Source: Paenirhodobacter populi (lineage in GTDB: Bacteria; Pseudomonadota; Alphaproteobacteria; Rhodobacterales; Rhodobacteraceae). From it: 64,000 nt of DNA. The position numbers and the translations under genes are program-made. The DNA lies in NCBI RefSeq assembly GCF_004022215.1, contig NZ_SAUZ01000002.1, forward strand, positions 248,001 through 312,000. The letters are read 5' to 3'. The notes under the pieces were generated by a model. The model ran no database searches. It was given only the letters and a program-made list of their open reading frames with translations, and was not told the DNA's origin. Positions 19,381 through 54,143 of the stretch are shown here, piece by piece. Each line of letters begins with the position of its first letter. Position 1 is the first letter of the stretch.

Positions 19381-19721
19381 TTGATTCGGCAGAACGGCGC
19401 ACCGGGCGAATCGGCCCGAAGGATGCTGCGGCGCGGCATTCATGCTGCGCTGTGGCGTGGTGGCGCTAACGCCGCCCAAGCACCGCAGCACATCAACAGC
19501 CAAACATCTGATGTCACGCTGATTTCCCGCCATCCGGCCGGGTGAATTTACAATGCACCTGCAACATCAGTGAATGAATTTACAGAAAAACATAATGAAA
19601 ATGAATGCTTACGAAAAATGGAGAGTTTGGTTTACAATGCAGTCGGGGGAATATGCGGCGCCGGGTCATTCCGTGCCGCGAGCGGCGTTTCGCCGCGCGA
19701 CAGCGAGGAGGAGGAAACTCA
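19381..19721 (+). promoter_or_regulatory. long acs upstream region with phased TTTACA repeats
   Basis: This 341-base gap holds no convincing gene. Its second half (about 19540-19640) is strikingly AT-rich. TTTACA occurs at 19547, 19579 and 19631, in the same orientation, spaced 32 and 52 bases (close to three and five helical turns). The first and third copies extend to a perfect 11-mer TTTACAATGCA. These look like binding sites for an activator or repressor of acs. A short frame starting at 19574 inside it is probably not coding. Confidence 0.5.
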
Positions 19722-21701
19722 ATGACCAAGCACGAACAGGTCGTCGCCGACAATGGCATGTGTCCGATTCCGCAGGGTTTTGAAAACGCCCATGCGGACA
19801 CGCCCAAATATCTGGAGATGTATCGCGAATCGATCGAGAACCCCGATGCCTTCTGGGGCCGCGAGGGGCTGCGGCTCGACTGGATCAAGCCTTATAGCAT
19901 CGTCAAGAACACCGATTTCACCTTCGGCAAGGTCTCGATCAAATGGTTCGAGGACGGGGTGCTGAACGCCTCGGTCAACTGCATCGACCGGCACCTGAAG
20001 GATCGCGCGCTGCAGACCGCGATCATCTTCGAGCCCGACGACCCGCATGAAAGCTCGCGCCACATCACCTATCGGGAGCTGTCCGAAAAGGTGAACCGGA
20101 TGGCGAACGTGCTGCTGTCGCAGGGCGTGATGCGCGGCGACCGGGTGGTGATCTATCTGCCGATGATCCCCGAGGCGGCCTATGCGATGCTCGCCTGCGC
20201 GCGGATCGGGGCGATCCATTCCGTGGTTTTCGCGGGCTTTTCGCCCGATGCGCTGGCGAACCGGATCAACGATTGCGGCGCCAAGCTGGTGATCACCGCC
20301 GATACCGCGCCGCGCGGCGGCAAGCGCACGCCGCTCAAAGCGAATACCGATGCGGCGCTGCTGCATTGCTCGGACAAGGTGCGCTGTCTGGTGGTGCGCC
20401 GCACCGGCGACCAGATCAGCTGGACCGAAGGCCGCGACGTCGACATCAGCTACATGATGGAACAGGTTTCCCCCGAATGCCCGCCGCGGCCGATGGGGGC
20501 GGAGGATCCGCTGTTCATCCTTTACACCTCGGGCTCGACCGGCAAGCCGAAGGGCGTCGTGCATTCGACGGGCGGCTATCTGGTCTATGTCTCGATGACG
20601 CATGAATACACTTTCGACTATCACGAGGGCGACGTGTTCTGGTGCTCGGCCGATGTGGGCTGGGTGACGGGGCACAGCTATATCGTCTACGGGCCGCTGG
20701 CGAACGGGGCGACGACGCTGATGTTCGAGGGCGTGCCGACATGGCCCGATCCGGGCCGGTTCTGGGCGATCTGCGAAAAGCATGGCGTGACCCAGTTCCA
20801 CACGGCACCCACCGCGATCCGCGCGCTGATGGCGCAGGGCGCCGAATGGGTGGACAAATACGATCTCTCCTCGCTCAAGCTGATCGGCACGGTGGGCGAG
20901 CCGATCAACCCCGAGGCATGGCACTGGTACAACGAACATGTCGGCAAGGGCCGCTGCCCGATCGTCGACACCTACTGGCAGACGGAAACCGGCGGCAACA
21001 TGCTGACGCCGCTGCCGGGCGCGACACCGACGAAGCCGGGATCGGCGACCAATCCGTTCTTCGGGGTGAAGCCCGTGGTGCTGGAACCGCAGACCGGCGT
21101 CCGCATCGGCGAGGTGGAATGCGAAGGCGTGCTGGCGATCTCGGACAGCTGGCCGGGGCAGATGCGCACCGTCTGGGGCGATCACGAGCGTTTTCAGGAA
21201 ACCTATTTCAGCCAGTATCGCGGCTATTACTTCACCGGCGACGGCTGCCGGCGCGACAGCGACGGTTACTACTGGATCACCGGCCGCGTCGATGACGTGC
21301 TGAACGTGTCCGGCCACCGCATGGGCACGGCCGAAATCGAAAGCGCGCTCGTCGCCCATCCGGCGGTGGCCGAGGCGGCGGTGGTCGGCTATCCGCACGA
21401 CCTCAAGGGGCAGGGGATCTACGCCTATGTCACCCTGATGAACGACCAGACGCCTTCGGACGAGCTGCGCTCGGAACTGGAAAAGTGGGTGCGCACGGAA
21501 ATCGGCCCGATCGCCAAGCCCGACCTGATCCAGTGGGCGCCCGGCCTGCCCAAGACCCGCTCGGGCAAGATCATGCGCCGCATCCTGCGCAAGATCGCCG
21601 AAAACGACTATGGCGCGCTTGGCGACATCTCGACGCTGTCCGATCCGGGGGTCGTGCAGGATCTGATCGACAACCGCATGAACCGCGGAGCCGACGCATG
21701 A
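19722..21701 (+). CDS. acs: acetyl-CoA synthetase (AMP-forming)
   Basis: Acs (659 residues) activates acetate to acetyl-CoA with ATP, releasing AMP and PPi. Motifs: the adenylate loop [11 protein letters not shown], the acetate-pocket region [22 protein letters not shown], and [21 protein letters not shown] hinge. The C-terminal [11 protein letters not shown] carries the lysine that is acetylated and switched off in other bacteria. ATG 19722 has GAGGAGGAA upstream. The stop overlaps adk by ATGA. Upstream repeats suggest dedicated regulation. Confidence 0.96.
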
Positions 21702-41623: not shown

Positions 41624-42409
41624 ATGACGGCCGCGCCGGTGATCGACATAGCGAACCTCGATCTGGTCTTTCAGACGAACGACGGCCCGGTGCAGGCGCT
41701 GAAAGACGTGAACCTGACGATCGGCAAGGGGGATTTCGTCTCCTTCATCGGGCCTTCGGGCTGCGGCAAGACCACGCTTTTGCGCTGCATCGCAGCGCTG
41801 GAAACCCCGACCTCGGGCCGGCTGACGGTCTGCGGCATCAGCGCGGACGAGGCGCGCAAGGCGCGCAGCTACGGCTATGTGTTCCAGGCGGCGGGGCTCT
41901 ATCCGTGGCGGACCATCGCGGGCAACATCCGCCTGCCTCTGGAGATCATGGGCTACACCCGCGCCGAACAGCAGGAGCGCGTGCAAAAGGTGCTCTCGCT
42001 CGTCGAGCTGGAGGCCTTCGGGCGGAAATACCCGTGGCAATTGTCGGGCGGCATGCAGCAGCGCGCCTCGATCGCGCGGGCGCTGGCCTTCGACGCGGAT
42101 ATCCTGCTGATGGACGAACCCTTCGGCGCGCTTGACGAAATCGTCCGCGACCACCTGAACGAGGAATTGCTCAAGCTCTGGCGGCGGACGCAAAAGACCA
42201 TCGCCTTCGTCACCCATTCGATCCCCGAGGCGGTTTACCTGTCGACGAAGATCGTGGTGATGAGCCCGCGCCCCGGCCGCATCGCCGAGGTGATCGAAAG
42301 CCCGCTGCCGCGCGGCGACCGGCCGCTGTCGATCCGCGAAAGCCGGGAATTCCTCGACATCGCCCATCGCGTGCGCGAGGGGCTGCGCGCGGGCCATGCC
42401 TATGATTGA
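41624..42409 (+). CDS. ABC transporter ATP-binding protein (SsuB/TauB/ThiZ class)
   Basis: A 261-residue ATPase with Walker A GPSGCGKTT, Q-loop FQAAGLYPW, signature LSGGMQQR, Walker B LLMDEPFGALDE and switch THSIPEAVYLS. There is no TOBE domain, as is normal for the nitrate/sulfonate/pyrimidine-precursor class. ATG 41624 follows a CACAGG region; the upstream 200-base gap contains repeat copy 6. First of four importer genes. Confidence 0.9.
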   Translation: MTAAPVIDIANLDLVFQTNDGPVQALKDVNLTIGKGDFVSFIGPSGCGKTTLLRCIAALETPTSGRLTVCGISADEARKARSYGYVFQAAGLYPWRTIAGNIRLPLEIMGYTRAEQQERVQKVLSLVELEAFGRKYPWQLSGGMQQRASIARALAFDADILLMDEPFGALDEIVRDHLNEELLKLWRRTQKTIAFVTHSIPEAVYLSTKIVVMSPRPGRIAEVIESPLPRGDRPLSIRESREFLDIAHRVREGLRAGHAYD

Positions 42410-43277
42410 GCGGTTCAGAACCCTTGCCGCCATCCTGACCGTCGTCGCGGTGATCGTCGTGGTCTGGTATGTCTTCGCGGTCGTGCTGAACAGCCGCTGG
42501 GAATACGATCAGGCCGCCCGCGCGGGCGTGCAGATCGGCCTGCCGGAACTGATCGAACGCACGCTGGCGCAGGACCGGCCGATGCTGCCCACGCCGCATC
42601 AGGTGCTGGCGGGGCTGTGGGAGGGCGTGACGCGCTATGCTCCCACCTCGCGGCGCAGCCTTGTCTATCACGCCGGGGTGACGCTGTCGGCGACGCTCGC
42701 GGGCTTCGCGCTCGGTGCGGCGGCGGGGCTGCTGCTGGCGGTGGGCATCATGCATTCGCGCGCGATGGACATGTCGGTGATGCCCTGGGCCATCGCCTCG
42801 CAGACGATCCCGATCCTGGCGATCGCGCCGATGGTGATCGTGGTGCTGGCCTCGCTCGGGATCAAGGGGCTGCTGCCCAAGGCGCTGATCGCGGCCTATC
42901 TGAGCTTCTTTCCGGTGCTGGTCGGCATGGTCAAGGGGCTGCGCGCCCCGGACGGGATGCAGCTCGACCTGCTGCGCACCTGGAATGCCTCGCGCGCGAC
43001 GACCCTGTTCAAGCTGCGGCTGCCCGCTTCGCTGCCGTATCTCTTCGCCTCGCTGAAGGTGGGGATCGCCTCGGCGCTGGTCGGCACGATCGTGGCGGAA
43101 CTGCCGGCCGGGGCGACGGTGGGGCTGGGGGCGCGGCTCCTGTCGGGCAGCTATTACGGGCAGACGATCCAGATCTGGTCGGCGCTCTTCGCGGCGGCGA
43201 TCCTTGCGGCGGTTCTGGTGGCGGCGGTGGGCGCGGTGGAGCGTCTGGTGCTGAAACGCATGGGGCTGGCGCGATGA
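42396..43277 (+). CDS. ABC transporter permease (first), SsuC/TauC class
   Basis: A 293-residue membrane protein with an N-terminal helix (residues 8-28), a periplasmic segment up to about 80, and five further helices. The EAA-type loop reads RTWNASRATTLFKLRLPASLPYLF. ATG 42396 overlaps the ATPase by 14 bases; ATG 42402 two codons later is equally possible. The first permease is longer than usual because of the periplasmic segment, as seen in pyrimidine-cluster importers. Confidence 0.88.
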   Translation: MPMIERFRTLAAILTVVAVIVVVWYVFAVVLNSRWEYDQAARAGVQIGLPELIERTLAQDRPMLPTPHQVLAGLWEGVTRYAPTSRRSLVYHAGVTLSATLAGFALGAAAGLLLAVGIMHSRAMDMSVMPWAIASQTIPILAIAPMVIVVLASLGIKGLLPKALIAAYLSFFPVLVGMVKGLRAPDGMQLDLLRTWNASRATTLFKLRLPASLPYLFASLKVGIASALVGTIVAELPAGATVGLGARLLSGSYYGQTIQIWSALFAAAILAAVLVAAVGAVERLVLKRMGLAR

Positions 43278-43287
43278 GGAGGATGCG

Positions 43288-44148
43288 ATGAGCTGGCAGG
43301 GATGGGCGGCCATCGCCTTCTGGATCGCGGCGACGATGCTCAACTGTCACATCGCCAATCGCTGGTATCGCAGCCGGTGGGCAAGGCCCTTCGTCGCCAC
43401 GCTGTTCGGGGTGACGCTGCTGGTGCTGTGGGAAGGGCTCGTGCGCGGGCTGAACGTCAGCCCGGTGATCCTGCCAGCCCCCACGGTGATCGCCGCACGC
43501 TTCGCGCAAAGCCTGCCGCTTCTGTGGGGCGATTTCACCCAGACGATCCTGAAGGGGGCGCTGTCGGGCTATCTGATCGGCTGCGGGGCGGCGGTGCTGG
43601 TGGCGATACTTGTCGACCGCTCGCCCTTTCTGCGGCGCGGGCTGCTGCCCGTCGGGAATTTCATCGCCGCTCTGCCGATCGTCGGCATCGCGCCGATCCT
43701 CGTGATGTGGTTCGGCTTCGACTGGCAGTCGAAGGCGGCGGTCGTGGTGGTGATGGTCTTCTTCCCGGTGCTGATCAACATGGTGGCGGGGCTGGCCGCG
43801 ACCGATCCGTTGCAGCGCGACCTGATGCGGACCTATTCTGCGACCGGACGGCAGAGCCTGCTGTATCTGCGCCTGCCCGCCGCCATGCCCTTCCTTTTCA
43901 ACGGGCTGAAGATCGCCACCACGCTGGCGCTGATCGGGGCCATCGTTGCCGAGTTTTTCGGCTCTCCGACGCGGGGCATGGGGTTTCGCATCTCGACCGC
44001 CGTCGGTCAGCTTGATCTGCCGCTCGTCTGGGCGGAAATTGCGGTGGCGGCGCTGGCGGGATCGGGCTTCTTCGGGCTGATGACCCTGATCGAGAAGGCG
44101 GTGACCTTCTGGCATCCTTCACAGCGCGCCGCCGGGCGGGGCGCGTGA
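43288..44148 (+). CDS. ABC transporter permease (second)
   Basis: A 286-residue permease with about seven hydrophobic segments and the cytoplasmic loop RTYSATGRQSLLYLRLPAAMPFLFNG that contacts the ATPase. AGGAGG precedes the ATG. Together with the first permease it forms a heterodimeric channel, unlike the homodimeric SsuC type. Ten bases follow the first permease stop. Confidence 0.88.
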   Translation: MSWQGWAAIAFWIAATMLNCHIANRWYRSRWARPFVATLFGVTLLVLWEGLVRGLNVSPVILPAPTVIAARFAQSLPLLWGDFTQTILKGALSGYLIGCGAAVLVAILVDRSPFLRRGLLPVGNFIAALPIVGIAPILVMWFGFDWQSKAAVVVVMVFFPVLINMVAGLAATDPLQRDLMRTYSATGRQSLLYLRLPAAMPFLFNGLKIATTLALIGAIVAEFFGSPTRGMGFRISTAVGQLDLPLVWAEIAVAALAGSGFFGLMTLIEKAVTFWHPSQRAAGRGA

Positions 44149-44153
44149 CAACC

Positions 44154-44184
44154 AACCGGAACAATCGGCAACCGGAACAATCGG
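44154..44184 (+). repeat. tandem 16-bp repeat before the binding-protein gene
   Basis: AACCGGAACAATCGG occurs twice, perfectly, with a 16-base period (44154-44168 and 44170-44184), between the second permease and the binding-protein start. It may be a slipped duplication or a paired protein/RNA site. Confidence 0.7.
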
Positions 44185-44205
44185 AAAAACCAAGGGGAGA
44201 TGATG

Positions 44206-45186
44206 ATGAACAGATACCTGATCGGTGCGGCGCTTCTGGCCCTGACCGCGGGCGCGGCGGCGGCGCAGGATGTGAAGCTCCAGCTCAAATGGGTGACGCA
44301 GGCCCAGTTCGCGGGCTATTACGTCGCCAAGGACAAGGGGTTCTATGAGGAAGAGGGCCTGACCGTCGAGATCATGCCGGGCGGTCCGGATATCGCGCCG
44401 ACGCAGGTCATGGCGGGCGGCGGCGCGGATGTGACGGTGGACTGGCTGCCCTCGGCGCTGGCCGCGCGGGAAAAGGGGCTGCCGCTGGTCAATATCGCGC
44501 AGCCGTTCAAAAGCTCGGGCATGATGCTGACCTGCCTTGCGGAAACCGGGATCACGGGACCGGAGGATTTCCGCGGCAAGACGCTTGGCGTCTGGTTCGG
44601 CGGCAACGAATATCCGTTCCTGAGCTGGATGGCGACGCTGAAGATCCCGACCGATGGCTCGCCCGAAGGGGTGACGGTGCTGAAGCAGGGCTTCAACGTC
44701 GATCCGCTCTTGCAAAAGCAGGCGGCCTGCATCTCGACCATGACCTATAACGAATACTGGCAGGTCATCGACGCCGGTATCAAGCCCGAGGAGCTTGTCA
44801 CCTTCAAATATGAGGACGAGGGTGTGGCCACGCTGGAAGACGGGCTTTACGTCATGGAGGACAAGCTCGCCGATCCCGCGTTCAAGGAGAAGATGGTGAA
44901 ATTCGTCCGTGCCTCGATGAAGGGCTGGAAATACGCCGAGGAGAACCCCGACGAGGCCGCCGATATCGTGCTGGAAAACGACGAAACCGGCGCCCAGACC
45001 GAAGAGCACCAGAAGCGCATGATGGGCGAGATCGCCAAGCTGACGGCGGGCTCGAACGGTGCGCTGGATCCGGCGGATTATGAGCGGACGGTGAAGATCC
45101 TGCTGGCGGGCGGGTCGGATCCTGTGATTTCCAAGGCACCCGAGGGGGCCTATACGCTGGAAATCACCGATGAGGCGCTGAAGTAG
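44206..45186 (+). CDS. NMT1/THI5-like ABC solute-binding protein
   Basis: The binding subunit has a signal peptide (MNRYLIGAALLALTAGAAAA, cleavage before QDVK) and the THI5/NMT1 fold: LKWVTQAQFAGYYVAKDKGFYEEEGL, MPGGPDIAPTQVMAGGGADVTVDW. Family members bind pyrimidine rings such as hydroxymethylpyrimidine, or related heterocycles. Three ATG codons are in a row at 44200-44208; the third has the best distance to AAGGGGAG. With the RutR-like control, uptake of a pyrimidine-derived compound is likely; a thiamine precursor is the alternative. Confidence 0.87.
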   Translation: MNRYLIGAALLALTAGAAAAQDVKLQLKWVTQAQFAGYYVAKDKGFYEEEGLTVEIMPGGPDIAPTQVMAGGGADVTVDWLPSALAAREKGLPLVNIAQPFKSSGMMLTCLAETGITGPEDFRGKTLGVWFGGNEYPFLSWMATLKIPTDGSPEGVTVLKQGFNVDPLLQKQAACISTMTYNEYWQVIDAGIKPEELVTFKYEDEGVATLEDGLYVMEDKLADPAFKEKMVKFVRASMKGWKYAEENPDEAADIVLENDETGAQTEEHQKRMMGEIAKLTAGSNGALDPADYERTVKILLAGGSDPVISKAPEGAYTLEITDEALK

Positions 45187-46002: not shown

Positions 46003-46034
46003 CGACAGGGCGCGGAGGGTGACCCTGCGTCATC

Positions 46035-46072
46035 GGTAAATTCCATTGCAGGGCCGGGTGTTGCGTGTAAAT
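46035..46072 (+). promoter_or_regulatory. pair of inverted TTTACA-type sites before the ScfR-type gene
   Basis: GGTAAATTC (46035) and TGTAAAT (46066), 31 bases apart, lie 30-67 bases before the ATG. They are the reverse of the acs upstream motif: reversed, the second reads ATTTACACGCAA, similar to ATTTACAATGCA. Autoregulation is a reasonable guess. Confidence 0.4.
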
Positions 46073-46101: not shown

Positions 46102-47445
46102 ATGGCCCGCATCGCGCTCACCGGCACCCGGATCCGGGAACGCCGCACGATCCTGCGCATCCGGCAGGCGGATCTTGCCCGTTCGGTGGGGATCTCGCCC
46201 GCCTATCTCAATCTGATCGAACACAACCGGCGACGGATCGGGGCGCCGCTTCTGGCACAGCTTGCCGAGGCGCTCGGCACCTCGGCGGTGGCGCTTGCCG
46301 AAGGGGCGGAGGCGATCCTGTTCGACGGGCTGAGGATGGCGGCCGCCGCGGGGGATCCCGGCGGCGCCCCGGCCGAGCTTGACCGGATCGAGGAATTCGC
46401 CAGCCTGTTCCCCGGCTGGGCCGGGCTGCTGGTGAACCGGCAGGAGCGCGTCGCCTCATTGGAGCGGATGGTCGAGACCTATGCCGACCGCCTGTCGCAT
46501 GATCCGTTCCTGCTGGACGCGCTGCACGAACTGCTTTCGGGCGTCACCGCGCTGCGTTCGACCGCGACGATTCTGGCCGAGACGGAGGATATCGAGCCGG
46601 AATGGCAGGGCCGTTTCCTGCGCACGATCGGCGAGGAAGGGGAGCGTCTGTCCGCCACCGCGGCGGCGCTGGCGCGGCATCTGGATGCGCTGGTGGCGGC
46701 GGAAACGGGTCTTTCGGCGCCGCTCGATCAGGTGGAGGCCTGGCTTGCCGCCTGCGACTGGCATCTGCCGGAACCTGATGCCCCCGGCGCACGGCAGATC
46801 GAGGCCCGGATCGAGGCGGCGCCGCAACTGGCGGGCACGGCGGCACGGGATCTGGCACGGCGCTATGCCCGTCAGGCCGAGGCCGATGCGCGGGCCTTGC
46901 CGCTCGGCGATTTCCTGTCGGCGATCGCGCGTTTCGGCCCGGAGCCCGCGCGGCTTGCGGCGGAATTCGGCGCGCCGCTTGGCGCGGTGTTCCGCCGTCT
47001 GGCGACCCTGCCGCCCGAGGCCGCGGCGGAGCTGCCGGGCGGGAGGATCACCGCGGGGCTGGTGATATGCGACGGGTCGGGTACGCTGACTTTGCGCCGC
47101 CCGGTTCCGGGCTTCGCGCCGCCGCGCTTCGGCGCGGCCTGTCCGCTCTGGCCGCTGTATGAGGCGCTTGGCCGGCCGATGCAGCCGGTGCAGGCGCTGA
47201 TCGAGGTGGCGGGCCGGATGCCGCGCCGGTTCCGCGCCTTCGCCTTTTGCGCGCCCTTGCCGCCGGCAAGTTTCGACGCGCCGCTGTTGGTTGAATCGAT
47301 GATGCTGGTGTTGCCCGCGACCGGCGACGATGCGGCGCGTCCGGTCGGCACCGCCTGCCGGATCTGCCCGCGGGCGAATTGTCCCGGCCGCAACGAACCC
47401 GCCCTGCTACCGCAGCCGGAACCGGCGCGGGGGCTTGCTGTTTGA
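46102..47445 (+). CDS. short-chain fatty-acyl regulator (ScfR/RamB-like XRE protein) with a DHp-like segment
   Basis: The 447-residue regulator has an XRE HTH at residues 10-62 (RQADLARSVGISPAYLNLIEHNRRR) and a C-terminal DUF2083-like region with GACPLW-type sequence (FGAACPLWPLYEAL) and terminal cysteines CRICPRANC. This is the pattern of ScfR proteins (RamB, PccR) that sense short acyl-CoAs. Between them, residues 140-195 look like a histidine kinase dimerisation helix pair: His142-Glu-Leu, then IGEEGERL. It lies 54 bases before a lone receiver gene and a symporter-kinase, an unusual partnership. Effector unknown. Confidence 0.8.
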   Translation: MARIALTGTRIRERRTILRIRQADLARSVGISPAYLNLIEHNRRRIGAPLLAQLAEALGTSAVALAEGAEAILFDGLRMAAAAGDPGGAPAELDRIEEFASLFPGWAGLLVNRQERVASLERMVETYADRLSHDPFLLDALHELLSGVTALRSTATILAETEDIEPEWQGRFLRTIGEEGERLSATAAALARHLDALVAAETGLSAPLDQVEAWLAACDWHLPEPDAPGARQIEARIEAAPQLAGTAARDLARRYARQAEADARALPLGDFLSAIARFGPEPARLAAEFGAPLGAVFRRLATLPPEAAAELPGGRITAGLVICDGSGTLTLRRPVPGFAPPRFGAACPLWPLYEALGRPMQPVQALIEVAGRMPRRFRAFAFCAPLPPASFDAPLLVESMMLVLPATGDDAARPVGTACRICPRANCPGRNEPALLPQPEPARGLAV

Positions 47446-47499
47446 CAGCCATGCCCGGCACCGCGATAGTCGGGATGGAGGAGCGGGGGAGGGAAGCTG

Positions 47500-47886
47500 A
47501 TGACGACGGACAGGAGGATCCTGTTGGTCGAGGACGAGCCACATATCGCCGAGGCGATCCGGTTCATCCTGACCCGCGCGGGATGGCTGGTGGCGGTCGA
47601 GCCGGACGGCGCCGCCGTCCTTGGCCGGATCCGGACCCTGCGGCCCAGGGTGGTGGTGCTGGATGTGATGCTGCCGGGGCGGTCGGGGCTGGATATCCTG
47701 ACCGATCTGCGCACCGATCCCGCCTTTTCCACGCTGCCGGTGCTGATGCTGACGGCGCGCGGCCACGGGCGCGACCGGGAGGCGGCCGAGCAGGCCGGCG
47801 CCACGGCCTTTCTGGCGAAGCCATTCGCCAATGCCGATGTTCTGGCCGCGGTCGAACGGATCGCCGGCGCGGATCAGGCGGGCTGA
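47500..47886 (+). CDS. single-domain response regulator (no output domain)
   Basis: A 128-residue receiver. Acidic pocket VEDE (residues 10-13), phospho-acceptor Asp55 in VVVLDVMLPGRSG, Thr in MLTARG and Lys in AKPFAN are all present. It lacks the LuxR-type HTH found in CrbR, the partner of CrbS in other bacteria. Start has GGGGGAGGGAA upstream. The stop overlaps the next gene (TGATG). It is the likely phosphate acceptor of the symporter-kinase two genes downstream. Confidence 0.9.
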   Translation: MTTDRRILLVEDEPHIAEAIRFILTRAGWLVAVEPDGAAVLGRIRTLRPRVVVLDVMLPGRSGLDILTDLRTDPAFSTLPVLMLTARGHGRDREAAEQAGATAFLAKPFANADVLAAVERIAGADQAG

Positions 47887-48170
47887 TGGGGCGCGGTCCC
47901 CGCCCGGTGTTTCTGGCGCGGCGCTCCTACCGGCGGCGGCGGGCGATGGATGCTGTGCGGCTGCTGCCGGTTCCGGGGACGCTGGCGGTGCTGCTGCCGG
48001 CCCTGTGGCAGCCGGCGCCGCGTCCGGCGCTGGCGGTGGTCTGGCTGTTCGGCACCTGGGCGGTGCTGATCGTGCTGACGGCGGTGCTGTCGCGACACCT
48101 CGCCCCGGCGATCGAGGCGGAGGAAGAAGCCCTGACCCCCGCCGATGACGACCCCGCGGGCGGGCGCTGA
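47886..48170 (+). CDS. small two-helix membrane protein before the symporter-kinase
   Basis: A 94-residue protein with an Arg-rich N-terminus (ARRSYRRRRAM), two hydrophobic helices (about 24-42 and 49-68) and an acidic tail. I do not recognise a family. The position just before an SSS-type gene is where DUF485/DUF4212 partners of acetate-permease-like symporters sit, so it may be an analogous accessory subunit. Overlaps the receiver stop; three bases separate it from the symporter-kinase. Confidence 0.65.
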   Translation: MGRGPRPVFLARRSYRRRRAMDAVRLLPVPGTLAVLLPALWQPAPRPALAVVWLFGTWAVLIVLTAVLSRHLAPAIEAEEEALTPADDDPAGGR

Positions 48171-48172
48171 CG

Positions 48173-50902
48173 ATGCCTTTCGACATCCTCGTCATCGTCT
48201 GCCTCGTCTATGTGATCGGCCTGTTCTGCGTCGCCTTTCTGGCCGAGCGCCGCGCCGCGCGCGGGCAGTTGCGGTTCCTGCGCGGCCCCTGGGTCTACAC
48301 CCTGTCGCTGTCGATCTACTGCACCGCCTGGACGTTTTTCGGCGCGGTCGGCTATGCGGCGCGGTCGGGGCTGGAATTCGCCACGATCTACCTTGGCCCG
48401 ACGCTGGTTTTCATCGGCTGGTGGGGGGTGCTGCGCAAGCTGGTGCGGATCGGCCGCGCGCATCGGGTGACCTCGATCGCCGACCTGATCTCGGCCCGCT
48501 ACGGCAAGTCGAACGGGCTCGGGGTGATCGTCACGGTGATCTCGGTGGTCGTCGCGGCGCCTTACATATCCCTGCAATTGCAGTCGGTCACGGTGAGTTT
48601 CGCCACTTTCGCCGCGCAGGCGCCGGAATGGGGCCCGCCGGAGCATGGTTCCATCGCGCTGTGGCTGGCGGCGGGGCTGGTGCTGTTCACCATCCTCTTC
48701 GGGACCCGCAACCTCGATTCGAGCGAGCGTCACCACGGCGTCGTCATGGCCATCGCGGTCGAGGCGGTGGTGAAGCTCGCCGCGCTGCTGGCGGTGGGGG
48801 CCTATGTCACATGGGGGCTGGCGGACGGGCCGGGCGATATCCTTGCGCGGATCGATGCGACGGCACGCGAGGGATGGACGCTCGTCCCCTCGCGCTTCGC
48901 GGGGCTGACCTTCGTCGCGGCGGCGGCGGTGCTGACGCTGCCGCGGATGTTTCAGGTGCTGGTGGTGGAAAATGCCGACGAACGGCATCTGGCGACGGCA
49001 AGCTGGGCCTTCCCGCTCTATCTGATGCTGATGAGCCTGTTCGTCGTGCCGATCGCGGTGATGGGGCTGGAACGGATGCCCGAGGGGTCCAATCCCGATC
49101 TGTTCGTGCTGACGCTGCCCTTGCAGGAGGGACAGGGAAACCTTGCGCTGCTGGCCTTTCTGGGCGGGTTTTCCTCGGCCACCTCGATGGTGATCGTGGC
49201 CGCGATCGCGCTGTCGACGATGATGTCGAACCATATCCTTGCGCCTGCATGGCTGGGGCTGCGGCGACGCATCGGCCGGGGCGGTGGCGATCTGCGCAGC
49301 GTTGTGCTGATCAGCCGGCGGTTCTGCATCGCCGCGGTGCTGGCGCTCGGCTATGGCTACTATCGCTTTTCCGGCGGGGGCGAGGCACTGGCCGCGGTCG
49401 GGCTGATCGCCTTCGTCGGTGCGGCGCAGGTGCTGCCCGCGCTTCTGGGCGGGCTGTTCTGGCGCGGTGCCACGCGGATCGGCGCGACGCTCGGCATGAT
49501 GGCGGGGTTCGCGCTGTGGATGTATACGCTGTTCCTGCCCTCTTTCGGCGGCGGGGCGATCCTGTCCGCCGATCTGATGGCGCATGGGCCATGGGGCATC
49601 GCCGCGCTGCGCCCGCATGCCCTGTTCGGCCTGACGGGGCTGGATCCGCTGTCGCATGCGCTGGTCTGGAGCCTGCCGGTCAACGCGGCGGTGTTCTTCC
49701 TCGCCTCGGGCCTGTCCTTCCCCGATCCGATGGAGCGGCTGCAAAGCATGGCCTTCGTCAATGTCTTCGACCACGGCCCCGGCGCCAAGGGCTGGGCGCG
49801 CGGTCAGGTGGAGGCCGAGGATCTGCTGTCCATGGCGCAGCGCATTCTGGGGGCCGAGGCCGCGCAGCATTTCTTTCAGGCCGAGGCGGCGCGGCAGGGC
49901 AAGCCCGGTTTCCTGCCCGATCCGACGCCCGCCTTTCTGACGCTGCTGGAACGCGAACTGGCGGGTTCGGTGGGTGCGGCGACGGCCCATGCGATGATCG
50001 CGCAGCTGACGGGCGGCGCCTCGGTCACCGTGCGGGACCTGATCCTCGTCGCGGGCGAGGCTGCCGAGAGCAAGGAACACGCCGCCCAGATCGAGGCGAA
50101 ATCCGAGGAGCTGGCCCGCACCGCCCGCGCCTTGCGCGAAGCCAACGCCAAGCTGACGGAACTGGCGCGGCAGAAGGACGCCTTCCTCGGCCAGATCAGC
50201 CATGAGCTGCGCACGCCGATGACCTCGATCCGTGCCTTTTCGGAAATCCTGATGGAACCCGAGCTGCCGCCCACGGCGCGGGCGCGATATGCGGGCATCA
50301 TCCATGAGGAAAGCCGCCGGCTGACGCGGCTGCTCGACGATCTGCTCGACCTCGGCGTTCTGGAAAGCGGGCGGGCGCAGCTGTCGCTGTCGCCGGTGCG
50401 CCTGCGCGACCTGATCCGCCGCGCCATTGCCGCCGCCGCGAATACCCGGCCCGAACGCGCGCTGCGCTATCAGCGCGACGTGACCGCCGAAGAGGTCGTC
50501 GTCACCACCGATGCGGACCGGCTGTTGCAGGTCTTCATCAACCTGATCACCAATGCGCGGAAATATTGCGCGGCCGATCCGGCGGTGCTGCGGATCGGGG
50601 TGCGGCGGCGCGGATCCTCGGTGGTGATCGACTTCATCGACAATGGCGCGGGGATTCCGCGCCGGGAACAGGCCCTGATCTTCGAGAAGTTTTCCCGGCT
50701 GGGCGAGGCGCCCGAGATTCCGGGCGTCGGCCTCGGCCTCGCCATCTGCCGCGAGATCATGGTCAATCTGGGCGGCTCGATCGACTATCTGCCGGGGCAG
50801 GGCGGCGCGGCCTTTCGGGTCGTGCTGCCGATGACCTGCCCGCCGCGGCCGGGCGAGGGGCGGAAAGTCCCCCCGGATGCGAAGGCCGTCAACCGATCGT
50901 AA
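48173..50902 (+). CDS. sodium/solute symporter - histidine kinase fusion (CbrA/CrbS-like)
   Basis: The 909-residue protein joins an SSS/SLC5 transporter domain (residues 1-500, about 13 helices; LISARYGKSNG and FLGGFSSATSMVIVA are SSS-like), a STAC-like linker (about 540-615), a coiled coil (about 625-665), and a kinase core with His677 in ISHELRTPMTS, N-box NLITNARKY, DNGAGIP and GVGLGLAI. In CrbS the transporter part senses acetate-type acids and the kinase controls acs. The catalytic motifs are intact. Operon partners are the receiver and, upstream, the ScfR-type regulator. Confidence 0.9.
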   Translation: MPFDILVIVCLVYVIGLFCVAFLAERRAARGQLRFLRGPWVYTLSLSIYCTAWTFFGAVGYAARSGLEFATIYLGPTLVFIGWWGVLRKLVRIGRAHRVTSIADLISARYGKSNGLGVIVTVISVVVAAPYISLQLQSVTVSFATFAAQAPEWGPPEHGSIALWLAAGLVLFTILFGTRNLDSSERHHGVVMAIAVEAVVKLAALLAVGAYVTWGLADGPGDILARIDATAREGWTLVPSRFAGLTFVAAAAVLTLPRMFQVLVVENADERHLATASWAFPLYLMLMSLFVVPIAVMGLERMPEGSNPDLFVLTLPLQEGQGNLALLAFLGGFSSATSMVIVAAIALSTMMSNHILAPAWLGLRRRIGRGGGDLRSVVLISRRFCIAAVLALGYGYYRFSGGGEALAAVGLIAFVGAAQVLPALLGGLFWRGATRIGATLGMMAGFALWMYTLFLPSFGGGAILSADLMAHGPWGIAALRPHALFGLTGLDPLSHALVWSLPVNAAVFFLASGLSFPDPMERLQSMAFVNVFDHGPGAKGWARGQVEAEDLLSMAQRILGAEAAQHFFQAEAARQGKPGFLPDPTPAFLTLLERELAGSVGAATAHAMIAQLTGGASVTVRDLILVAGEAAESKEHAAQIEAKSEELARTARALREANAKLTELARQKDAFLGQISHELRTPMTSIRAFSEILMEPELPPTARARYAGIIHEESRRLTRLLDDLLDLGVLESGRAQLSLSPVRLRDLIRRAIAAAANTRPERALRYQRDVTAEEVVVTTDADRLLQVFINLITNARKYCAADPAVLRIGVRRRGSSVVIDFIDNGAGIPRREQALIFEKFSRLGEAPEIPGVGLGLAICREIMVNLGGSIDYLPGQGGAAFRVVLPMTCPPRPGEGRKVPPDAKAVNRS

Positions 50903-50965: not shown

Positions 50966-52045
50966 GTGCAGGAACAGACAGATCAGCAACAACCGGGGCA
51001 GGAACCCGCCGCACCGGCCCCGTCGGTGTTGCGGCGCATGATCCGCGCGGCGCCGGCTGAGGATGCGGCGGAGCCGGGGCCGGAACGGGCCATCGGGCTG
51101 GCGATCGCCAAGGCCGCGCGGGACCGGCTCGATCTTGAAATCGACGTGCGGTCACTGACCGAGCGCCGCGCCAGCCTCGCCGAACTGCCCGAACTGATCG
51201 AGAACATGTCGCTTTTGCTGCTGATCGAGGGACCTGCCGAGGCGATGGGGCTGGTCGTGCTGCCCGGCCCGACGCTCTCGGCGATCGTCGAGGTGCAGAC
51301 GACCGGGCGCATCGCCCGCAATCCCCCGCCGCCGCGCAAGCCGACGCGGATGGATGCGGCGATGACGGTCGATCTGGTGGATGCGGTTCTCGCCGGGATC
51401 GAGACGGAACTGGCCCGCAGCGGGGAGGCCGTCTGGGCCTCGGGCTTCCGCTATGCCTCATACCTCGACGATATCCGCTCCATCGGTCTGCTGATGGAGG
51501 ATGTGAGCTATCGGGTCTGGACCATGCGGCTGGCGATCGGGCCGCAGGCGGTCCGCGAGGGCGGCCTGCTGTGGATCGTGCCCGAACAGGGCCGCGCGAA
51601 GCCGGCGCTGCCGCCGCAGCGGCCGGCTGCCGCGCCGGTGCCTCCGGACGATGCGACCTGGGCGCAGCATCTGGAACAGGCGGTGATGGGCAGTCAGGCG
51701 GCGCTGGACGCGGTGCTGCATCGGGTCAGCATGCCGCTGTCGGCGGTGATGGCGCTGCGGCCCGGCGTGGACATTCCGCTGCCGCCCGACGCGCTTGCGC
51801 GCCTGCAGCTGGAGGCGGACGGGCGCGCCGTGGCGACCGTGCGGCTCGGCCAGCGCCGGGGCCTGCGCGCGGTGCGGCTGGTGGCGGAGGATGCCCCGCA
51901 GGAGGCGCCCGCGCCGCGCAGCGAGGAACCGGATCACGAGGCGTGGCGTCGCGGTGAGGACGGGGCGGCGATCCTGCGCGACGCGGCCTCGGCGCCGCTG
52001 AAGGCCGATCCCGGCGATCCCGGGCCGATGCAGAATGCCGTCTGA
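50966..52045 (+). CDS. FliM/FliN-family motor-switch-like protein
   Basis: The 359-residue protein has an N-terminal Pro/Ala-rich tail, a central FliM-like region (ERRASLAELPELIENMSLLLLIEGP; LVDAVLAGIETELA) and a C-terminal SpoA/FliN domain (about 240-310, RVSMPLSAVMALRPGVDIPLP). In the flagellar motor such proteins form the C ring. There are no other flagellar genes here, so it is either a stray fliM-type gene or a specialised switch homologue. Start is GTG 50966. Linked in direction, not overlap, to the symporter-kinase gene 63 bases upstream. Confidence 0.75.
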   Translation: MQEQTDQQQPGQEPAAPAPSVLRRMIRAAPAEDAAEPGPERAIGLAIAKAARDRLDLEIDVRSLTERRASLAELPELIENMSLLLLIEGPAEAMGLVVLPGPTLSAIVEVQTTGRIARNPPPPRKPTRMDAAMTVDLVDAVLAGIETELARSGEAVWASGFRYASYLDDIRSIGLLMEDVSYRVWTMRLAIGPQAVREGGLLWIVPEQGRAKPALPPQRPAAAPVPPDDATWAQHLEQAVMGSQAALDAVLHRVSMPLSAVMALRPGVDIPLPPDALARLQLEADGRAVATVRLGQRRGLRAVRLVAEDAPQEAPAPRSEEPDHEAWRRGEDGAAILRDAASAPLKADPGDPGPMQNAV

Positions 52046-52175: not shown

Positions 52176-54143
52176 ATGGCGGAACGCGCGAAGCTGACGA
52201 GGGACGGCGCATGGGCCCGGATCGTGATGGCCGGACGGCAGGAGGCGCCGCGCGGCGCGGGCTTCGACCCGGCCCTGCGCGCGGATCTGCAGCGGGCCTT
52301 GACCGAGGCTCTTGCCGGGACCGGCCTGCGGGCGATCGTGCTGCGCGCGGGCGAGGGCGGCTGGCCCGTCGCGGCGGATCCCGCGCAGGACTATCTGGCT
52401 CAGGCCGATGCCCCGACGCTGGCCGACCTTGCGGCGATGATCGCGCGGTCCCCGGTGCCGGTGATCGCGCTGATGGATGGTCTGGTCGCGGGCGGGGCGC
52501 TGGCGCTGGCACAGGCGGCGGATCTGCGGATCGCCCGGCCGGGCACGCGCTTTGCCGCGCCGGAATTCGGGCTTGGCTTCGTGCCGGGCGGCGGCGGGAT
52601 GGTGCGGCTCGCGCGCCGGATCGGGGTGGAGCCCGCGCTGGAGTTCGTCACCTCGGGTCAGGTCCTGCGGACCGAGGCGGCGCATCGGCTGGGCCTGTGC
52701 GATACGGTGGCGACCGGGATCACCGCCGACCTGCCGGATGACATCGCCCCGCGCGCCGCGGCGATCGCCGAGCCGCAGGCCTATATCGACAGCCTCGCCC
52801 GCCTGCGTAGCCAGCCGCGGCAGGGGCCGCAGGCGGAGGTCATGGCGCGCCTTCTGGACGTCTGCGAGGCAGCCGTGCTGCTGCCCGAGGAAGAGGCGAT
52901 CACCTTCGAGGGCGTCGCCTGCGCGGATCTGATCGCCGGAGAGATGTCGCAGGCGCTGCGCCATGTGCTGGCCGCGCGGCGCCGGGCGGTGCGGCTGGCC
53001 GGGACCGGGCCGGGCGCGACGGCGCAGATCACCCGCCTCGCGCTGTGGAACCCCTCCGAACGGCTGACCCATGCGCTGGTCGAACGCGGGGTTTCGGTCG
53101 AGATCGGCGCCTCGGAGCCCGCGCGGCTGGAACAGATCCTGCAGGTCGTCGCCCGGGCGCAGCATGCCGGTGTCGCGGCCGGGCATCTGACGGAACCGCA
53201 ACGCGCTGCCGCGTGGGACCGGCTGACGCCGGTGGCCGGGATCGCGGATTTCTCGCCCGCGCAGATGGTGCTTGCGGCGCCGCGTCCGGGGGAGGTCGCG
53301 GCCCTGCGGACGCATTTTGCCTCGGGTGAGGGGGTGCTCGCGCTCGAAGGCGTGCGGCAGCGCGAAGCGGGCGAATTGCAGTTCAGCCGTGCCGCCGCGC
53401 TGGCCGAGGTGACAGGCGGGCCGGAAACCGACGCCGCCCTGCAGGCGCTGGCCGGGATCCTGCGGGCCGAGCGCGATCTGGTGATCCATGCGGAGGGGCT
53501 TTCCGCCTCGTTCGAGACGACGTTCTGGCTGGCGGCGGAGCGGATGGTGATGGCGGGGGCGACGCCGGCCGCCGTCGATGCGGCGCTGACCGCATGGGGC
53601 TTTGCCGAAGGGCCGTTCGCGCGGCTCGACCGGCGCGGCCTGCCCGCGGCATTCGCGCAGTTCAATGCGCGGGATGGCCGGGCGGGGGCCTATCTCAACT
53701 GGCTCGGGCTGGAAGGCCGCACCGGGCGCGCGGCGGGCAGGGGTGTCTGGCTTTACGGCGAGGCCGGCGCACGGATTTGGCCGGATGAGGAAGAGGAACT
53801 GCGCGCCCTGCGCCGCGAGGCAGGGATCACGCCGCAGGTGCTTGCACCGCAGGAAATCGTCGCGCGCATCCTCGCCGAGCTCGCCCGGGCGGGCGCGGAT
53901 GCCTTGCAGCAGGGCCGGGCGCATCGGGCGGGGGATGTCGATCTGGTGGCGATCTCGGTGCTGGGCTTTCCGCGTCACCGGGGCGGACCGCTGTTTCAGG
54001 CGGACCGGGCAGGGCTTCTGGCGGTGCGCAAGCGGCTGCGCGCGCTGGCCGACGAAAGCGCCCCGGCGCCCGACACGCTGTGGGATGTGCTGATCCGCAA
54101 TGGCCGCAGATTCGCCGAGCTGGACGAACCGGTCGCCGCCTGA
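52176..54143 (+). CDS. FadB-like fused enoyl-CoA hydratase/3-hydroxyacyl-CoA dehydrogenase with degraded active sites
   Basis: The 655-residue product keeps the FadB layout: a crotonase domain (1-180), a Rossmann region (about 270-330) and C-terminal dehydrogenase domains (about 440-650, GFPRHRGGPLFQAD). However, the first catalytic Glu of the crotonase is Ala110 (GGALALA); only Glu130 remains. The GxGxxG NAD loop is replaced by WNPSERL-type sequence, and no catalytic His-containing motif is seen. It may be an isomerase, a binding protein or a pseudo-enzyme. The reading frame is intact, so it is not a simple pseudogene. Confidence 0.75.
   Translation: MAERAKLTRDGAWARIVMAGRQEAPRGAGFDPALRADLQRALTEALAGTGLRAIVLRAGEGGWPVAADPAQDYLAQADAPTLADLAAMIARSPVPVIALMDGLVAGGALALAQAADLRIARPGTRFAAPEFGLGFVPGGGGMVRLARRIGVEPALEFVTSGQVLRTEAAHRLGLCDTVATGITADLPDDIAPRAAAIAEPQAYIDSLARLRSQPRQGPQAEVMARLLDVCEAAVLLPEEEAITFEGVACADLIAGEMSQALRHVLAARRRAVRLAGTGPGATAQITRLALWNPSERLTHALVERGVSVEIGASEPARLEQILQVVARAQHAGVAAGHLTEPQRAAAWDRLTPVAGIADFSPAQMVLAAPRPGEVAALRTHFASGEGVLALEGVRQREAGELQFSRAAALAEVTGGPETDAALQALAGILRAERDLVIHAEGLSASFETTFWLAAERMVMAGATPAAVDAALTAWGFAEGPFARLDRRGLPAAFAQFNARDGRAGAYLNWLGLEGRTGRAAGRGVWLYGEAGARIWPDEEEELRALRREAGITPQVLAPQEIVARILAELARAGADALQQGRAHRAGDVDLVAISVLGFPRHRGGPLFQADRAGLLAVRKRLRALADESAPAPDTLWDVLIRNGRRFAELDEPVAA

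Follow-up and report, generated by a model that had tools for sequence, protein, structure and literature searches.

An ScfR-type regulator carrying a kinase-like DHp hairpin suggests a split acetate-type two-component circuit in Rhodobacteraceae

RESULTS AND DISCUSSION

Four plus-strand genes at positions 46102-50902 of a 64,000-nucleotide stretch of the Paenirhodobacter populi genome (contig NZ_SAUZ01000002.1, positions 248,001 to 312,000; hereafter the window) encode an ScfR/IsaR-type transcription factor (46102..47445, 447 aa; hereafter the regulator), a lone receiver domain (47500..47886, 128 aa), a small protein with two hydrophobic stretches (47886..48170, 94 aa) and a non-hybrid histidine kinase fused to an SSS(SLC5) domain (48173..50902, 909 aa). 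The regulator holds a helical hairpin of the dimerization and histidine phosphotransfer (DHp) type with a conserved His of the phospho-acceptor kind, without the features of an active kinase. We consider it probable that these genes form a two-component circuit of the acetate type whose response regulator is divided, its output half being carried by another protein; the signal would pass from kinase to receiver, from receiver to the regulator's hairpin, and on to acs, the gene for acetate--CoA ligase. The gene order, the minimal gaps and the overlap of the receiver with its successor had been described in an initial annotation of the window, and we found them as described: the last nucleotide of the receiver's stop codon (47886) is also the first of the small protein's gene, and the kinase starts 3 nt past the end of the small protein's stop codon.

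In the proposed circuit, the SSS-kinase would perceive a signal and phosphorylate the lone receiver, which would dock on the DHp hairpin within the ScfR-type DNA-binding protein. Docking, perhaps with phosphotransfer to His142, would alter the way in which the regulator, probably a tetramer like PrpR, sits on paired TTTGTAAA boxes, thereby setting acs expression and, in many relatives, that of the regulator's own operon. The signal is probably acetate, or flux through the transporter-like domain, a suggestion made because of the link to acs and because CrbS is a functional analogue. The domains, the insertion of the hairpin, its kinship to the kinase, the conservation and co-occurrence of the genes, and the presence of a two-box DNA element at both kinds of promoter were computed; from these we infer docking, phosphotransfer, DNA binding, the direction of regulation and the signal. 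If the circuit is real, a one-component regulator has been wired directly into a two-component system by an inserted copy of the kinase's receiver-docking hairpin. The lone receiver, which adjoins its kinase in 77 of the 80 loci sampled, would then have a testable output, and Rhodobacteraceae would have a candidate acs (acetate) switch.

A DHp-type hairpin is inserted in the regulator

The regulator begins with an XRE-type helix-turn-helix (HTH; residues 11-62, 46132..46287; HTH_3 E value of 5e-9, 36.5 bits against a cutoff of 23) and matches the ScfRs family (3.4e-10, 40.4 bits, cutoff 24), and both domains were detected at E ≤ 0.01 in all 64 regulator homologues aligned, which comprise 25 long forms from elsewhere in the class and 39 short forms, the window's included. 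It scores 91.6 bits with the RamB model NF038139 (NCBIfam), under the cutoff of 700. An AlphaFold2 model of the whole protein (mean predicted local distance difference test score [pLDDT] of 89.7) finds its best Foldseek match in Mycobacterium tuberculosis PrpR (6cz6; 9e-10), and contains two helices at residues 135-160 and 166-203, where block pLDDT is 78-96. These form the DHp-like hairpin (residues 135-203, 46504..46710), which lies between the HTH and the ligand core.

When the profile of the 64 regulators was compared with PrpR (6CYJ), positions 58-135 aligned with PrpR residues 12-88 and positions 204-457 with residues 94-405; about 68 regulator residues thus appear as a clean insertion, since they are unmatched between residues 88 and 94 of the PrpR chain. 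The insertion is missing, with a gap at the same place, from the host's RamB-like paralogue (543 bits with NF038139, also under the cutoff of 700) and from two hairpin-less relatives. For lack of the hairpin, L056 and L057 were omitted from the 64-regulator alignment; they were restored for the comparison of coenzyme A (CoA) residues described below. Profile positions 129-211 match the kinase HK853 (5uht, 2c2a, 3dge) at 5e-4, and a profile of the hairpin alone matches HK853 (2c2a/3dge) at 6e-5, ranked beneath one repetitive protein A construct. The aligned homologues contain a stretch resembling an H-box, which in some relatives is near-textbook (HELRT...LTSIRSFSEIL). Position 142, encoded at 46525-46527 in the window, is His in 60 of the 64 aligned regulators (Gln in two, Phe in two) and in all 101 regulators from complete gene sets, two of the 103 such sets (L135 and L178) having been omitted because the kinase H-box was not found. 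Consistently with a protein that is not itself a kinase, no HATPase domain was found in the regulator by Pfam, and the kinase-type Arg at H+3 and Pro at H+5 (three and five residues after the His) are shared in 1% and 0% of the 101 regulator-kinase pairs, respectively.

The hairpin is most similar to the DHp of the cluster's kinase

Direct BLAST comparison of the regulator with the kinase of its own genome gave an alignment through the hairpin in 25 of 27 genomes, with E values of 4e-19 in the best case (L075), 2e-17 in L076 and 0.005 in the window; there was no alignment in L097, and in L095 it lay elsewhere. Among the host's 15 HisKA domains, that of the cluster kinase is the best match to the regulator hairpin (z of 8.9, runner-up 7.2). 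When 28 whole genomes were searched with a profile of the 64 hairpins, the SSS-kinase was the best non-regulator match in 28/28 (7e-18 to 8e-12), including genomes in which the kinase and regulator genes lie apart; the next matches are above 1e-7, save for 2.6e-11 in G368 (a 568-aa kinase) and 3.4e-10 in G330 (a 168-aa frame). At single positions, regulator and kinase are identical at H+10 (Arg) in 85% of cognate pairs versus 27% for non-cognate kinases, and at H+15 (Ile) in 97% versus 7%. This pattern suggests that the regulator hairpin is related to the SSS-kinase's own DHp, of which it looks like a copy. Being like the kinase's DHp, the hairpin is a surface on which the lone receiver could plausibly dock, and this lends support to the earlier proposal that the HTH missing from the receiver is supplied by the ScfR-type protein.

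Regulator, receiver and kinase are conserved together

The initial annotation had proposed a search for co-occurrence across the family, and the cluster proved to be conserved well beyond one strain. Regulator, receiver and kinase occur in the same order on one strand in 76 of 80 loci with record titles (nearly all from Rhodobacteraceae), with the small protein detected in 72. Among the remaining loci, L150 has receiver and kinase on the opposite strand, beyond a FliMN_C gene, and L141, L157 and L164 have neither within the fetched flanks; the receiver adjoins the kinase in all 77 named loci that have a kinase. Receivers from the 101 complete sets keep Asp12, Glu13, Asp55 and Lys107 without exception, and have Thr or Ser at position 85 in all 101.

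Both the kinase (E ≤ 1e-60) and a regulator match (E ≤ 1e-10) were found in 146 of 149 genomes of the order, and both are missing from the other three (G018, G081 and G133). In G006 and G118, which have the kinase, regulator matches are weak and paralogue-like (best E values of 1.7e-11 and 8.4e-20); since these are no better than those of ScfR paralogues, the two genomes are left out of the orthologue count, so that kinase and regulator orthologue occur together in 144/149. The same gene set is present in several other families of the class, outside the order. Among 240 class genomes sampled, the regulator hairpin is present in 29 (E ≤ 1e-20, a split set after the table was viewed) and the non-hybrid kinase in 33 (picked by open-frame length, 894-1041 aa). 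Of the 29, 28 also carry the kinase and the other is a genome that is 68% complete; five genomes have the kinase alone (Fisher p of 2e-30, kinship ignored).

In G014, G015, G019, G042, G141, G149, G264, G357 and G368 the regulator lies apart from the kinase, beside which the receiver is still found; in G149 a second receiver adjoins the regulator. In G188 and G314 the regulator is ~7.5 kb away from the receiver-kinase pair.

A two-box element marks regulator and acs promoters

Upstream regions of 75 regulators (the window and 74 of the 80 loci) were searched for plus-strand TTGTAAA with at most one mismatch, which was found in 69, compared with 20 expected from base shuffles. The copies number 166 on the plus strand versus 22 on the minus strand, and pairs exactly 32 bp apart are present in 42 of the 75 regions, the runner-up spacing of 42 bp in 11. 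The 42-bp spacing, like one of 19 bp seen in 6 sequences, recurs upstream of the regulator, and both may be operator variants.

The strict pattern YTGTAAA-N25-YTGTAAA has 84 sites in 81 of the 149 genomes, 79 of which have one copy, while a reversed control pattern gave 7 matches in total. Sixty-four of the sites precede the regulator by 51-96 bp and share its orientation, a number that is partly by construction because the element was derived from, and then counted in, regulator upstream regions. Twelve sites, unaffected by this derivation, precede acs by 137-191 bp, without exception in the opposite orientation. The other eight are elsewhere or unclassified, the acs coordinates of some such genomes (e.g., G051 and G120) being left out.

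In the window, the acs gene (19722..21701, plus strand; TIGR02188 equivalog, 1009 bits, cutoff 725) is preceded by CTGTAAA-N25-TTGTAAA (19547..19585, minus strand), a putative operator 26.5 kb from the cluster. It is the sole match in the window with up to two mismatches allowed (0.02 expected) and the sole exact match in the 4.78-Mb host assembly, and the host's two sampled congeners also carry the element at acs. When the 30 best-matching acs genes were scanned with at most two mismatches, 19 had a pair of spacing 32 in the opposite orientation versus 1 the other way; spacing 29 gave 10, and all other spacings from 26 to 39 at most 4. That this rare element occurs at regulator promoters and at acs promoters, the window's included, lends support to the earlier suggestion of acs as the target.

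The TTTGTAAA box differs by one base from TTTGCAAA, the footprinted box described for PrpR (PMC3420887), and the paired TTTGTAAA boxes at regulator and acs promoters resemble the TTTGCAAA-type pairs of the ScfR/IsaR family. Two near-identical boxes are described for this family, with an 18-bp spacer in Paracoccus denitrificans RamB (PMC3420887, PMC10370305). TTTGTAAA boxes also precede several long-form regulators, with a 32-bp pair in L060; the upstream regions of L061 and L062 have no such box. The strict site is present in 81 of 144 regulator-bearing genomes and in none of five regulator-less genomes (Fisher p of 0.018, kinship ignored). From the nearness of the box to TTTGCAAA, the occurrence of the element at regulator and acs promoters, and its lack in genomes without the regulator, we infer with good reason that the regulator binds the two-box element. 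That the strict site occurs as a rule once per genome, and most often in the promoter of the regulator itself, is in line with autoregulation.

The element could instead belong to another regulator, such as the RamB-like paralogue that the host encodes, which would then control both acs and the regulator described here; members of the ScfR family are described as recognizing similar boxes (PMC3420887, PMC10370305). We regard this as rather unlikely, since the absence of the element from all five regulator-less genomes and the fit of its genomic placement with autoregulation both speak for the cluster's own regulator.

Evidence against the circuit and alternative roles of the hairpin

Several observations weigh against the circuit as a whole or against parts of it. 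HisKA is barely recognized in the window's regulator (residues 136-184, Pfam E value of 0.055) and reaches E ≤ 0.01 in 10 of the 64 regulators. A Foldseek search with the hairpin alone returned nothing under E 0.1, with a designed bundle first and HK853 second, and was thus nondiscriminating. Over H+7 to H+16 alone, the part that faces the receiver in HK853/RR468, strictly the best match is the cognate kinase in 43 of 101 cases against the host's 14 other kinases; alpha-1 by itself was therefore judged too weak to prove, residue by residue, that receiver specificity is shared. At the DNA level, the window's own regulator promoter has a weak, degenerate pair (CGGTAAA at 46034-46040 and GTGTAAA at 46065-46071, 31 bp apart, plus strand) that leaves the strict pattern unmatched, and 63 of the 144 regulator-bearing genomes are without a strict copy. 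In G227 (L066), the regulator gene adjoins that of the kinase, and no receiver was found within the surrounding 16 kb. Finally, Gln (L046, L067) or Phe (L059, L079) replaces His142 in four regulators, all of which sit apart from receiver and kinase (in G264, G368, G188 and G314), and their receivers retain the Asp.

With the exception of G227 at hand, a claim that the receiver invariably accompanies the kinase was dropped; G341 (L068), a congener of G227, does have a receiver.

DHp is a dimerization domain, and the hairpin could be a dimerization spacer and nothing else, the genes being neighbors for shared expression and the receiver acting elsewhere. The genomes with the regulator apart from the kinase, and G227, would agree with this. 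A spacer would not need its closest similarity to be with the cognate kinase in 28/28 genomes, split genes included, nor a kept His, and we consider this explanation highly improbable. Another reading is a decoy or phosphatase role, in which the regulator would titrate or dephosphorylate the receiver, feed back on the kinase, and regulate DNA independently of the receiver. H+4 is the position of the phosphatase residue in HisKA kinases, and Ser or Thr is retained there in 97 of 101 regulators, as this role would predict. It would leave the receiver without another evident output in the cluster, and regulator and kinase are missing from the same three genomes; we therefore find it very unlikely.

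As to how the receiver would act on the hairpin, we tentatively entertain a His-Asp-His relay ending on a transcription factor, from the kinase His to the receiver Asp and on to the His in a captured DHp. A metabolic regulator would thus have become a phosphorelay output by insertion of a copy of the kinase's docking domain, its acyl-CoA input being lost later in Rhodobacterales. Phosphotransfer could not be universal, because position 142 is Gln or Phe in 4 of the 64 regulators although the Asp of the corresponding receivers is intact, which suggests that docking alone may be enough in some relatives. Docking could also be all that happens anywhere: the receiver would bind the hairpin according to its phosphorylation state, no phosphoryl group would reach His142, and the His would be kept for structure or recognition. 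The His-less regulators and the loss of the kinase's H+3 Arg and H+5 Pro speak for docking alone, as does the precedent of Caulobacter DivL, described as reading DivK~P through the docking surface of its DHp without kinase or phosphatase activity (PMC4211667). What DivL/DivK has in common with the proposed circuit is a DHp, inactive as a kinase, that reads a lone receiver; it differs in that DivL is a kinase-like protein acting via CckA, whereas the DHp in the window is inside a DNA-binding protein. Set against docking alone is the His itself, which is far better kept than its neighbors (101/101 in complete sets), and we regard this reading as a serious possibility that stops short of being probable.

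The Fe-S cysteines are kept and the CoA-contacting residues checked are lost

According to its description in PMC6765138, PrpR holds CoA with Phe240, His319, Arg338, Lys347 and Lys410, among others, and carries an iron-sulfur (Fe-S) cluster on four Cys residues. The GAF-like/ScfRs C-terminal region of the regulator (47062..47406) contains four putative Fe-S ligands in PrpR's pattern (C plus C-X2-C-X4-C), which are kept in 64/64 homologues: Cys347 (codon at 47140-47142), Cys419 (47356-47358), Cys422 (47365-47367) and Cys427 (47380-47382). None of the five CoA-contacting residues named above is kept in the window's regulator, all being deleted or replaced; PrpR Phe155 and Lys217 were left out of the scoring. 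Among the 25 long forms, Phe240 is kept in 21, His319 in 19, Arg338 in 21 and Lys347 in 22, and Lys410 is not conserved. Among the 39 short forms, the Phe240 region is missing in 38, Arg replaces His319 in all 39, and the positions of Arg338, Lys347 and the remaining residue are mostly hydrophobic. Since most long forms keep four of these residues and nearly all short forms are without them, the acyl-CoA input looks ancestral, and then lost in the Rhodobacterales lineage.

The initial annotation had envisaged that extracellular acid, via the kinase, and intracellular acyl-CoA, via the ScfR-type protein, might converge on one DNA-binding protein. The ScfRs domain, the intact Fe-S cysteines and the CoA-contacting residues of most long-form relatives are in keeping with a regulator that also senses acyl-CoA, but the loss of these residues in the 39 short forms, the window's among them, makes an acyl-CoA input doubtful. 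The placement of the HTH on the ScfR-type protein and the link to acs are the better-supported parts of that proposal.

Relation to known systems and other possible outputs

With RamB, PrpR and PccR (ScfR or IsaR), the window's regulator shares the XRE HTH, the ScfRs C-terminal region, the C plus C-X2-C-X4-C cysteines and, putatively, paired TTTG(C/T)AAA-type boxes and a site at the regulator's own promoter; it differs from them in the extra DHp hairpin, the lost residues of the CoA pocket, and its apparent two-component wiring. CrbS/CrbR (MxtR/ErdR) likewise has an SLC5 domain fused to a kinase and acs as the apparent target. CrbS is described as a hybrid kinase and CrbR as a single LuxR-type protein (PMC5715377), whereas the window's kinase has no receiver domain, and the HTH belongs to a separate protein that differs from CrbR in family and, apparently, in DNA box. 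The proposed circuit would therefore work like CrbS/CrbR, yet it is no member of that system. SLC5-kinases of the same bacterial class are also found in RpuS/RpuR and PrlS/PrlR; PrlR is assigned to the LuxR family of regulators and PrlS is called a hybrid (PMC7918813), and RpuR is reported to be necessary for activation of the mctP promoter (PMC9100948). Pden_1785 of Paracoccus denitrificans, an ScfR-network protein clustered with two-component genes, for which no function or DHp is reported in the available text of PMC10370305, is, by this description, a likely member of the present regulator group. A search over titles and abstract openings of open-licence papers turned up neither a DHp within an ScfR protein nor a described acs regulator of the CrbR kind for Rhodobacteraceae.

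Loci L121-L125 and L132 (genomes G203, G234, G198, G278, G379 and G006) contain an SSS-kinase and a nearby lone receiver without such a regulator. In the regulator-less L122-L125, the gene between those of receiver and kinase encodes an RNase_T (exonuclease) protein, which has PAS in two cases and a sub-threshold HisKA match in one; it was considered that the intervening genes of these four genomes might be acs, which was rejected since they encode RNase_T proteins. These are perhaps another output of the kinase-receiver pair. Two short frames consist mostly of a HisKA-type hairpin similar to the regulator's: one of 168 aa in G330 (L120:3049-3552, minus strand; E value of 8.7e-9) and one of 89 aa in G379 (L126:4053-4319, minus strand; 1.7e-10), a genome with kinase and receiver in which the regulator was undetected. 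They are possible free-standing DHp adaptors. Given the RNase_T/HisKA protein and the short hairpin frames, the hairpin may be a docking module that is not confined to a single output protein.

Other genes of the cluster and its surroundings

The receiver matches Response_reg at 2.4e-24, with its phospho-acceptor Asp55 encoded at 47662-47664, and has no output domain or HTH in Pfam or NCBIfam. In the small protein, 19-residue hydrophobicity means reach 1.4 and 2.4 in the two stretches. No Pfam or NCBIfam family is above cutoff, and its identification as the DUF4212 small subunit of SSS symporters was rejected because DUF4212 was unmatched in these scans. The kinase contains HisKA (residues 668-733) and HATPase_c (780-887), with no Response_reg within its 909 aa by Pfam, hence its classification as non-hybrid. 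Its SSS half is unlisted in the Pfam scan and yet scores 25.1 bits with PF00474 (SSF), above the cutoff, in a genome search; residues 6-460 match a solved "histidine kinase" chain, 10ed_A (4.5e-66). The linker at about 540-640 may be STAC-like, CrbS having a STAC domain between SLC5 and kinase; the Pfam and NCBIfam scans, whose libraries possibly contain no STAC model, listed no STAC match.

Directly 3' of the kinase, 50966-52045 encodes a protein with a FliM/FliN C-terminal (FliMN_C) domain. Among 80 relatives, 62 have a gene with this C-ring-type domain on the same strand as the regulator. It is followed at 52176-54143 by a FadJ-like enoyl-CoA hydratase/3-hydroxyacyl-CoA dehydrogenase, which scores far under the FadJ/FadB equivalog cutoffs and, as far as the fetched flanks extend, was detected in 16 of the 80 relatives. 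Upstream of the cluster, 42396-45186 contains two frames that resemble ABC permeases by eye and an NMT1/THI5-like binding protein, and a protein ~80% identical to the latter is encoded near the regulator in L080, where the cluster is split, and in L093.

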